From Cytophagaceae bacterium (GTDB taxonomy: Bacteria; Bacteroidota; Bacteroidia; Cytophagales; Cytophagaceae): 64,000 nt of DNA. Shown one piece after another: positions 40,082 to 49,816 of the stretch. The stretch lies in assembly GCA_029237685.1 (NCBI GenBank), contig JAQZBV010000026.1, forward strand, positions 1 to 64,000, written 5' to 3'. Within the stretch, counting starts at the first letter, position 1. Each line of letters starts with the position of its first letter. A program made the translations under genes and the position numbers. A model generated the notes under the pieces. It had not been told where the DNA came from. It worked only from the letters and a program-made list of their open reading frames with translations, and searched no databases.

Positions 40082-40540
40082 TTACATCGTTGTTCCTGTT
40101 GTTCCTCCTGTAGTAGTAGAAGTAGTTCCTGTGGTACCTGTAGTACCTGTAGTACGGGTTGTAGAACCGGTAGAACGTGTAGTAGAAGTACTTTTTGTAG
40201 AAGAAGTTGTTTTGGTAGTAGATGTTGTAGCAGTAGTTCCTGTACTGGAAGTAGTGCCTGTTGTAGAAGTTGTTCTGGTTGTGCTGCCAGTCGTACCGGC
40301 TGTGCTCGCATCGGTAGTTCCGTTGTGAGTGGTGCTTGTCGTACCATCGTTACCAGTTGTGGTGCTTGTAGTGGATGTGGTTCCTGTCCCGGACGTACTT
40401 CCTGTACCAGATGTAGTCGGATTACCAGTAGTCTGCGCAGTGCTACCTGTTGTATCCGCAAATGAATTTGTTCTGGTGAAACTCAATAATCCAACAGAAC
40501 CGCTTAAACATAAAGCAATAAATAAATGACTCTTTTTCAT
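40082..40540 (-). CDS. Secreted Thr/Ser-rich low-complexity protein
   Basis: The ATG at 40540 (MKKSHLFIALCLSGSVGLLS) gives 152 residues with a signal peptide ending near FTRTNSFA. The whole mature part is Thr, Ser and Gly with scattered Lys/Arg/Asn (e.g. TTSTTKTTSSTKSTSTTRST), without Cys. It is probably extended and surface-exposed, and could be heavily O-glycosylated, since Bacteroidota glycosylate at D-S/T-hydrophobic sites (inference; few such triplets are visible). Open frames on the other strand here come only from the repeat. It has its own terminator. Confidence 0.75.
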   Translation of the reverse strand: MKKSHLFIALCLSGSVGLLSFTRTNSFADTTGSTAQTTGNPTTSGTGSTSGTGTTSTTSTTTGNDGTTSTTHNGTTDASTAGTTGSTTRTTSTTGTTSSTGTTATTSTTKTTSSTKSTSTTRSTGSTTRTTGTTGTTGTTSTTTGGTTGTTM

Positions 40541-40669: not shown

Positions 40670-41917
40670 CTATTCATTCTTCTTAATCAAATTGAGTTTG
40701 CGCAAGCGAGGAGCTTTAACCGCCGTATAGGCAACTACCAATAAAGTCATGCATCCTCCAAATACCACGGAAGGAATGGTCCCCATCAAGCGTGCAGCAA
40801 CACCGGATTCAAAAGCACCGATCTCATTAGAAGATCCAATAAACATAGAATTGACCGCCGATACTCTTCCCTTCATATGAGCAGGAGTCAGTGTTTGCAT
40901 AATAATAGAACGGATGACCACACTTACACTATCAAAAGCGCCACTCAATACAAGAAGCAGGAGAGAAAGATAGAAATATTCCGACCAGGCAAATAAAATC
41001 ATACACACACCAAATCCGGCCACTGATATGAGCAAGAGTTTTCCTGTGTTATACAAAGGGGGACGATAAATTTGATAAACAGCCATAGCGAAAGTACCCA
41101 AAGCAGGTGCTGCACGCAACAGCCCTAAACCCTGAGGCCCTGCATGTAAGATTTCTTCCGCAAATATAGGAAGCAAAGCGATGGCTCCGCCAAATAATAC
41201 GGCGAAGAGATCCAATGAAAGTGCTCCCAAAAATACCTGGTTGCTAAAAACAAATTTTACTCCGGCAAATATACTTTCCAACAAACGCTCCCCTGCTATG
41301 GGCAGAGGCTTGGGCTTGGGACTGATGAAGGTAATAGAGACTACAGCCATCATCAGCAGCGCAGCAGAAATAAAATAACTGGTGGCAAATCCGGTAAAAC
41401 CATAAATAACTCCGCTCATCGCTGCACCGGTCACTATAGACAATTGACCGATGGTGCTGTTCCAGGCAGAAGAATTCGGATATAAATGTTCGGGTACACA
41501 CTGAGTCATCAAACCAAACATAGCTGGTGAAATAAAACCTCGGGCAATACCTGTAATAAATATCAAGGTATAAATCGACAGTATAAGTTGGGCATTATTT
41601 TCTTGCTGAATGTTTGTAGACAAAATACCCAATGCCAAAGAACACAAAAACAAGGTCGCATAGGCTAGCCGCACAATGTGCTTGCGACTCGCCTTATCTG
41701 CCAGGTGTCCGGCATACAAACCCAGTGCAATAGCGGGTACTGCTTCGGCAAGCCCAATCATTCCCAAAGACAATGGATCTTTAGTAAGCATATAAATTTG
41801 CCAACCTACGAGCACACCTTGTATTCGAATGGCAACTGTAAATAGCACGCGGGCCATGATGAAAAACTGAAAGTCGCGGTGCTTTAATACGGCATATGGA
41901 TCTGTGTTTGATTTCAT
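40670..41917 (-). CDS. MFS transporter (MFS_3/EntS-like) under TPP-type riboswitch control
   Basis: The ORF track begins at 42058, but that overlaps a riboswitch and terminator. The ATG at 41917 (MKSNTDPYAVLKHRDFQFFI) gives 415 residues and ~12 helices. Motif A-like loop GHLADKASRKHIVRLAYATL and the later AHMKGRVSAVNSMFIGSSNE fit the enterobactin-exporter/MFS_3 family. Two thiamine-pyrophosphate-riboswitch-like elements with terminators precede it, so the substrate may be thiamine, a precursor or an analogue. That is inference from regulation, since this family is usually annotated as an exporter. Confidence 0.85.
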   Translation of the reverse strand: MKSNTDPYAVLKHRDFQFFIMARVLFTVAIRIQGVLVGWQIYMLTKDPLSLGMIGLAEAVPAIALGLYAGHLADKASRKHIVRLAYATLFLCSLALGILSTNIQQENNAQLILSIYTLIFITGIARGFISPAMFGLMTQCVPEHLYPNSSAWNSTIGQLSIVTGAAMSGVIYGFTGFATSYFISAALLMMAVVSITFISPKPKPLPIAGERLLESIFAGVKFVFSNQVFLGALSLDLFAVLFGGAIALLPIFAEEILHAGPQGLGLLRAAPALGTFAMAVYQIYRPPLYNTGKLLLISVAGFGVCMILFAWSEYFYLSLLLLVLSGAFDSVSVVIRSIIMQTLTPAHMKGRVSAVNSMFIGSSNEIGAFESGVAARLMGTIPSVVFGGCMTLLVVAYTAVKAPRLRKLNLIKKNE

Positions 41918-41960
41918 CTGCAATTTTCCCTTTAAAGATGCAATTAATGCATACAATAAA

Positions 41961-41988
41961 AAAGGGTTCCGTATGAACGAAACCCTTT
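41961..41988 (-). terminator. Terminator hairpin after riboswitch element 1
   Basis: On the minus strand AAAGGGTTTCG-TTCATA-CGGAACCCTTT is followed by TTTTATTG. It lies between riboswitch element 1 and the MFS gene start, where a transcription-attenuation hairpin is expected. Confidence 0.8.
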
Positions 41989-41991
41989 GAT

Positions 41992-42140
41992 GAATCTTTA
42001 AATCCCTACGGCAGCATGAACTGTTTTCCGATTCTGTGATGGTATACACAAGGGGCATAACATCTCAACAGATCCATACTTCAGCATGCAAGTGTCGGTT
42101 CTCCGGGTGACCTGACGGATCAGGAGCCCCTTAAAGATTC
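41992..42140 (-). promoter_or_regulatory. TPP-riboswitch-like element 1 (degenerate), proximal to the MFS gene
   Basis: On the minus strand the P1 arms GAATCTTTAA and TTAAAGATTC close the element. It opens with AAGGGGCTCC and ends CATGCTGCCGTAGGGATT, matching the thi-box end (CGTAGGGA). Inside, TTGAGATGTTATG stands where CTGAGA...ACC is expected, and GAATCGGAAAACAG where GAACCTGA..., so binding residues are altered. A longer P3 arm is present. It is clearly related to the element at 49714, but may be weakened or changed in ligand. Confidence 0.55.
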
Positions 42141-42311
42141 GTTGTATAGTAAGTATAGAAAATAGTATGCCATTGATCCAAAAACTATATTTATGCAGCA
42201 ATAAGCTACTTCTGGTAAAATTATTTTTAATGATTGATAAAAAGCCTCTACAATTCATCAGCTAGCTGGTTAATACACTACTCACACTTCTTATCAATTC
42301 TGGATATAAAA

Positions 42312-42341
42312 AAAGGATCCTGCTTTTCAGAGGGATCCTTT
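42312..42341 (-). terminator. Terminator hairpin after riboswitch element 2
   Basis: AAAGGATCC...GGATCCTTT with an 12-base loop, followed on the minus strand by an 8-base T-run. It directly follows riboswitch element 2, as in the other two elements. Confidence 0.85.
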
Positions 42342-42345
42342 GGTA

Positions 42346-42492
42346 AATCTTTAATTCCTTACGCAGTATGTATTACAGGCGCTAAAGGTATCTTCTCAGT
42401 TCTAGTGATGAAGCACCATATAAAGAGTCGGTAGTCATAGACTGTCTCAGTTGAGGGTTGCTGTTGTATATCCAAAAACCCTTTAAAGATTC
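42346..42492 (-). promoter_or_regulatory. TPP-riboswitch-like element 2 (distal, tandem)
   Basis: On the minus strand it starts CGAATCTTTAAAGGG and ends TACTGCGTAAGGAATTAAAG, with the internal thi-box block GAACTGAGAAGATACC. CTGAGA, ATACC, CTGTAAT and CTGCGTAAGGAA line up with the TPP consensus, but the ACCTGA block is shortened (GCGCCTGTAAT). It is followed by its own terminator, then ~170 bp later by element 1. A tandem arrangement on one leader is therefore likely. Confidence 0.6.
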
Positions 42493-49713: not shown

Positions 49714-49816
49714 GAATCTTTAAATTCCCTACGTCAGTATTACCTGCTTCAGGTCCGATGGGTATTTCTCAGTCTGTTCCGATGTGATCGGAAGGTATGA
49801 CACCCCTTAAAGATTC
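49714..49816 (-). promoter_or_regulatory. TPP (THI-box) riboswitch
   Basis: On the minus strand P1 arms GAATCTTTAA and TTAAAGATTC enclose AAGGGGTGTCATACC, a P3 stem (TTCCGAT/ATCGGAA), CTGAGAAATACCC, GGACCTGAAGCAGGTAAT and CTGACGTAGGGAA. These are the conserved thi-box elements (CUGAGA, ACCUGA, GGUAAU, CGUAGGGA). A terminator follows at once. The downstream gene is a flavin amine oxidase. Confidence 0.93.

Follow-up and report, generated by a model that had tools for sequence, protein, structure and literature searches.

In an uncultured Chitinophagaceae-like bacterium, an MFS transporter gene is preceded by two leader elements, el1 and el2, that are not TPP riboswitches by score, yet are derived from TPP riboswitches. 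We suggest, with somewhat more confidence than doubt, that they are genus-specific, successive, cis-acting attenuators of this gene, with double cores and altered ligand recognition. The window, i.e. the whole 64-kb stretch of DNA that was analysed, belongs to the genome here called G000 (contig C190, a fragmented assembly), and was compared with the same-genus relatives G001, G002 and G003. The features are as follows.

42345..42492, minus strand: el1, TPP-derived leader element (sequence, fold, 87-88% identity to same-genus G003)
42492-42483 paired with 42354-42345, minus strand: P1 of el1 (sequence)
42421..42482, minus strand: el1 core A, the first and very divergent, probable TPP-like core (alignment, one compensated pair)
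42355..42420, minus strand: el1 core B (R1 model, 19.6 bits)
42308..42341, minus strand: predicted intrinsic terminator of el1 (fold and sequence reading)
41992..42140, minus strand: el2, TPP-derived leader element (sequence, fold, 75% identity to el2 of G003)
42140-42131 paired with 42001-41992, minus strand: P1 of el2 (sequence)
42073..42130, minus strand: el2 core A, GGGG...ACCC...GAACCGACACUUGCAUGCUGAAGUAUGGA (orthologous core and 20-nt repeat in G003)
42002..42065, minus strand: el2 core B, with the GAAUCGGAAAACAGUUCAUGCUGCCGUAGGGA end (R1 model, 9.7 bits; G003 orthologue)
41961..41988, minus strand: predicted intrinsic terminator stem-loop of el2, followed by a T run (fold)
42155..42172, minus strand: promoter-like motif of el2, TGGCATACTATTTTCTAT, with sigma54-like GG-N10-TC spacing (exact TGGCAYNNNATTTTCTAT match)
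40670..41917, minus strand: MFS transporter gene (MFS_1/MFS_3; EntS-like, below cut-off; profile matches)
49714..49816, minus strand: comparator, TPP riboswitch aptamer ahead of an FAD amine oxidase operon (RF00059, 49.0 bits)

Each element is closed by a 10 bp stem, P1, of the form GAATCTTTAA/TTAAAGATTY. Read on the minus strand, el1 extends from GAATCTTTAA at 42492 to TTAAAGATTT at 42345, and el2 from GAATCTTTAA at 42140 to TTAAAGATTC at 41992. Both are present where the initial annotation had placed them from the sequence; its headline range of 41917-42346 covers el2 but misses el1. The closing stem is the same in both, as had been observed. In brief, el1 (42500-42483) and el2 (42148-42131) have an identical P1 5' strand and flank, TATACAACGAATCTTTAA, these being the only two exact copies in the window, and the last P1 pair of el1 is a G-U pair (ATTT, not ATTC). 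A third TATACAACGAATCTTTAA site, with three mismatches, is the TPP element near 49816; the chance expectation at three mismatches is 0.2 per 64 kb. The 3' ends, CTGCGTAAGGA and CTGCCGTAGGGA, are fairly described as thi-box-like. Both elements fold with P1 closed and beat dinucleotide shuffles, with z of -3.3 for el1 and -3.1 for el2. The folds also bear out a terminator hairpin behind each element: AAAGGATCC...GGATCCTTTTTTT at 42341-42308 for el1, and a 12-bp stem with a T run at 41988-41961 for el2. The tandem layout of two P1 elements, two terminators and one MFS ORF is thus present in the window and also in G003, where the same tandem precedes the same MFS gene; the aptamer units within it are candidates. 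The elements span about 148 nt each, against 103 nt for the single-core TPP switch.

In a low-stringency scan with RF00059, el1 scored 13.9 and el2 13.3 bits (E 7-10). Both values are far below the gathering score of 54.3, and on this measure the proposed membership in the TPP family does not hold. The el2 of G003 scores higher, at 26.2 bits, which is likewise below 54.3. No Rfam family reached its gathering score anywhere in the 64-kb window, and this includes the TPP switch at 49714. That element (49817-49708) scores 49.0 bits to RF00059 (E 6e-9) and has all the nucleotides that do not vary across 31 TPP cores from the order, of which it is itself one. Its orthologue in G002 passes the gathering score with 60.2 bits, and the miss in the window is therefore a threshold effect. 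On the same evidence we regard the 49714 element as a real TPP switch, and el1 and el2, which are indeed more degenerate, as no members of the family by score. The other Rfam matches (STnc390, GibS, snoRNAs, mir) fall on terminator hairpins or AU-rich sequence and were rejected as chance.

What stands of the TPP identity is descent. We used a covariance model without P1, R1, made from the 31 TPP cores of the order, the pairs of which are well supported. In the 64-kb window R1 ranked the 49714 element first with 66.5 bits, a sequence that belongs to its training set, followed by el1 core B (19.6 bits, E 0.0023) and el2 core B, the 9.7 bits of which are no better than chance. In the same-genus loci it matched el2 core B of G003 with 22.7 bits (E 1.6e-4), and core A of the same element was found separately with 12.6 bits (E 0.066 in 28.5 kb). 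Further matches were el1 core B of G003 (13.1 bits, E 0.048) and a related leader, el3, in G000 (33.2 bits, E 3e-7) and G003 (15.9 bits). The el1 core A gave no R1 match of its own. Since el1 and el2 have P1 and terminator in common with the 49714 element, and match R1, we conclude that they are of TPP ancestry. In addition to these parts, el2 has the promoter-like box in common with the 49714 switch.

Two successive TPP cores appear to be nested inside one P1, a layout with good support in el2 and a probable one in el1. In el2 of G003 a 20-mer, AAACAGTTCATGCTGACGTA, is repeated exactly at a distance of 74 nt, the length of one TPP core, and each copy corresponds to a TPP 3' half. Aligned over their whole interiors, el1 and el2 of G003 score better than 1000 of 1000 dinucleotide shuffles; the alignment of el1 with el2 of G000 alone is marginal and not significant (54/1000 shuffles). 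It is this repeat, and the end-to-end alignment of the G003 elements, that lead us to the nested double core. The el1 core A consists of a hairpin, GGGUU/AACCC, and a following stretch, AACUGAGACAGUCUAUGACUACCGA, which is homologous to the P4/P5 arm of el2 core A. In the alignment of G003 el1 and el2, the CTGAGA that comes first in el1 (42450 region) falls on ACCTGA of P4 and not on J3-2. The double core within a single P1, in el2 and probably also in el1, is new here.

In the TPP aptamer, CUGAGA in J3-2, together with GGGGUG/ACCC of P2, senses the pyrimidine, and the arm made of ACCUGA, P5 and CGUAGGGA senses the pyrophosphate; CUGAGA and the motifs of the P4/P5 arm are its TPP-contacting motifs. 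As far as they can be read from the alignments, these motifs are divided between the two elements, el1 having CUGAGA without the P5 arm and el2 the P4/P5 arm without CUGAGA. In brief, el1 core B keeps GGUG, CUGAGA and AUACC in both G000 and G003, as well as the GCGUAAGGA end, but the P5 5' strand is absent, the P5 arm is deleted and ACCUGA is not conserved. In el2 core B it is the P4/P5/CGUAGGGA arm that is preserved, in full in G003 and with ACCUGA altered to AUCGGA in G000, and the CUGAGA position reads UUGAGA (G000) or UUGACU (G003). Neither element keeps the nucleotides that are invariant in the 31 related TPP cores. A P4 pairing in el1 core B was also considered; its registers differ among three species, and we claim no support for it.

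Among 59 genomes searched, el1/el2-type sequence was found only in the same genus, short chance matches apart; the matches of el1 to G027 and G049 were of that kind, short and within unrelated sequence. The searched genomes hold three copies of el1 and two of el2. In G001, which has lost el2 and most of the MFS gene, only el1 is left, with a weakened P1 and beside a frame-broken MFS remnant (L047:4300-5001, minus strand). We count this joint decay in favour of a link between leaders and gene. In G002 no match to el1 was found, and the el2 query matches only the 49714-type TPP switch. The core of el1 is 87% identical between G003 and G001 despite the broken MFS gene in the latter; its retention there fits a recent loss of the gene, and would also fit a role in trans.

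Between G000 and G003, el1 is 88%, el2 75% and the 49714 TPP switch 91% identical. At four-fold degenerate sites the identity is 41% for the amine oxidase gene and 38% for the MFS gene, and little of the el1-el2 spacer can be aligned. The conserved part includes the aptamer interior and not merely P1 and the terminator. Given identities of 88% and 75% against about 40% at four-fold sites, the interiors of el1 and el2 are under purifying selection. The simple drift that had been proposed for the two copies does not agree with this, as both are far more conserved than synonymous sites. Covariation is nearly silent, with one compensated pair (G-C/A-U, in el1 core A) and the control not exceeded, because only the three el1 and two el2 copies were available.

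Three kinds of cassette, el2, el3 and the 49714 type, have the promoter-like motif, TTGGCAY...ATTTTCTATA, at a distance of 28-36 nt upstream of P1. The string TGGCAYNNNATTTTCTAT has eight exact matches in the four genomes, seven of which head a TPP-like cassette. One cassette headed in this way, in G002, was previously unrecognised and scores 22.2 bits to the R1 model. The spacing GG-N10-TC is that of a sigma54 promoter, with a T for G in the -12 box; one RpoN is encoded in the genome. From the spacing we infer that the box may be sigma54 dependent. The el1 is without a clear box, and the thiC leaders are without one, having a TATCTTTG-like -7 box instead. The best reading is that a TPP cassette, comprising promoter-like box, P1, aptamer and terminator, has multiplied in this genus, and that el1 and el2 were copied from such a cassette.

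Other cassettes of the genus are found in different settings. The leader el3 is likewise TPP-derived and has this promoter-like box, P1 and terminator as well (L102:1501-1690, plus strand; L103:1400-1590, L034:1501-1591 and L130:1410-1480, minus strand). In G003 and G001 the gene downstream of it is an EncFtn-like encapsulated-ferritin gene and in G002 a TPR-like gene; in G000 it is an orphan next to a tRNA-like gene. The TPP switch of the window (49850-49670, minus strand) heads an operon encoding an FAD amine oxidase, a DsbA-like protein, OsmC, an AhpC/TSA peroxiredoxin and a DsbA/thioredoxin-like protein. This operon contains no obvious thiamine genes and is conserved in four genomes of the genus. 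A further TPP aptamer, the C62 type, is found at L032:1501-1596 on the minus strand (G000:C62) and in G003:C70, G001:C207 and G002:C126; it scores 70.9 bits in G000, 45.4 bits in G001 and 52.0 bits in G002. It is flanked by a YihY-like and a YdcF/DUF218-like gene, both named by eye, but is on the opposite strand, and no sense gene was seen downstream. It is possibly an orphan TPP-responsive RNA. That this leader is the 5' UTR of YdcF was ruled out by its strand.

The MFS gene starts at 41917 and its product matches Pfam MFS_1 and MFS_3. The best NCBIfam match is EntS, with 155 bits against a cut-off of 324. Homologues in other genera, outside the genus, with 43-63% identity, have no TPP element nearby. 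The role in thiamine transport that was proposed earlier is therefore unsupported.

Canonical TPP recognition is broken in both elements, yet they are under purifying selection, and for this reason the ligand of el1 and el2 most likely differs from TPP or is only partly related to it, or is bound with much altered affinity or lower specificity. We infer that the elements are switches and act in cis on the transporter gene. A possible mechanism comes from the 49714 orthologues in G001, G002 and G003. In predicted folds of their truncated transcripts the P1 5' strand (GGAUCUUU or GAACCUUU) pairs with the 5' arm of the terminator (AAAGG...), excluding P1, and this predicted antiterminator pairing suggests that a ligand-stabilised P1 leads to termination. 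By inspection, el1 and el2 retain AUCUUU and AAAGG, and the same toggle is possible in them. It should be noted that folding of el1 and el2 showed no antiterminator toggle, the pairing being predicted for the TPP orthologues only. With ligand bound, the P1 5' strand would pair with the P1 3' strand, the terminator would be free to form and the gene would be off; with no ligand, the P1 5' strand would pair with the start of the terminator stem (AAAGG...) and transcription would read through. With two such units in series, RNA polymerase would have to get past both terminators to reach the gene, except where a transcript begins at the box of el2. The two-stage control suggested by the initial annotation is possible. 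A simple serial logic is complicated, however, by the promoter-like motif that el2 has for itself, since el1 may then belong to a different transcript.

Three other explanations were weighed against successive attenuators with altered ligand recognition. The elements may be relics of copied TPP switches, with aptamers that bind nothing and with P1 and terminators left as constitutive attenuators. The Rfam scores of 13-14 bits would fit such decay, as would the loss of CUGAGA from el2 and of the P5 arm from el1, and related leaders do decay in the genus, to 45.4 bits in G001 and 52.0 bits in G002. We nevertheless find this unlikely, mainly because the aptamer interior is conserved and not only P1 and the terminator, at 88% (el1) and 75% (el2) between species against about 40% at four-fold sites. 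It is improbable that el1 and el2 are functional tandem TPP riboswitches of unusual sequence, giving a steeper or two-stage response to TPP: el1 is without ACCUGA and P5 and el2 without CUGAGA, all invariant in the 31 relatives, the scores are some 40 bits under the threshold, and the MFS family has no link to thiamine. The descent from TPP switches speaks for it, and tandems of this type are not rare, contrary to the initial annotation: a survey from 2022 counted 213 of them and described them as pseudo-cooperative (PMC9481103).

Each cassette could also be an independent small RNA, its promoter-like box and terminator delimiting a separate short transcript that acts in trans. The conserved box at that distance ahead of P1, shared by el2, el3 and the TPP switch, agrees with this, as do the two cassettes without a downstream gene (G000:C174 and the C62 type) and the persistence of el1 beside the broken MFS gene in G001. 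Against it, el1 has no clear box, and at the amine oxidase (four genomes), EncFtn (two) and MFS (two) loci the cassette is directly upstream of a co-oriented gene, as in a cis-acting leader; we therefore hold small RNAs to be very improbable. A more far-reaching form of altered ligand recognition would be a duplication of the TPP aptamer inside its P1, after which the sensing task was divided, el1 keeping the pyrimidine half and el2 the phosphate half. The pair would form a two-input gate on an exporter, with ligands other than TPP, for example a free pyrimidine or thiamin-like compound and a phosphate compound. We regard this as a long shot; if true, it would be a case of a riboswitch neofunctionalised by internal core duplication.

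In the literature searched we found no description of these Bacteroidota elements. They resemble the TPP riboswitch (THI element, RF00059) in ancestry, thi-box 3' end, P1 closing stem and terminator platform, in the CUGAGA/AUACC arm of el1 and in the P4/P5 arm of el2. They differ from it in scoring 13-14 bits against 54.3, in having two cores per P1, in the missing invariant contact nucleotides and in having no thiamine gene downstream. Tandem TPP riboswitches of Bacillota thiamine operons likewise have two leader units, each with a terminator, before one gene (PMC9481103, PMC12452182), and TPP-TPP pairs are common ahead of Bacillota thiamine genes (PMC12452182). These known tandems have recognisable TPP aptamers and thiamine genes, whereas el1 and el2 are derived and precede an MFS gene, el2 with its own promoter-like box. 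TPP riboswitches in tandem with HMP-PP riboswitches function as logic gates (PMC6478431). Dual-aptamer riboswitches with one expression platform, such as glycine and others (PMC9481103), also combine two related aptamer-like cores with one terminator; in el1 and el2, however, both cores lie inside a single P1, and TPP is absent from the dual-aptamer classes listed in that survey. Some TPP-class RNAs prefer thiamin or thiamin monophosphate (PMC9481103) and, like el1 and el2, combine a TPP scaffold with changed ligand-contact residues. Those variants are still classed as TPP riboswitches and ours are not.

Riboswitch classes must arise from older ones, and only a few intermediates have been recognised. 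The genus studied here has a TPP switch, several derived copies that share its box, P1 and terminator, and conserved copies in which the TPP contacts are lost, in part through core duplication in P1. This small natural series could serve as a test bed for how an aptamer changes its ligand. It also illustrates that derived family members are hidden by Rfam thresholds.

Some minor features of the locus were recorded. Close to the MFS start codon, at 41941-41928, there is a half-copy, GCATCTTTAAAGGG, which was rejected, as it is not conserved in G003. An 86-aa ORF at 42258-41998 overlaps el2, which raises the idea of a leader peptide. Downstream of the MFS gene, window positions 40082-40540 (minus strand) encode a small repetitive protein, rich in Thr, Ser and Gly, with an apparent signal peptide.
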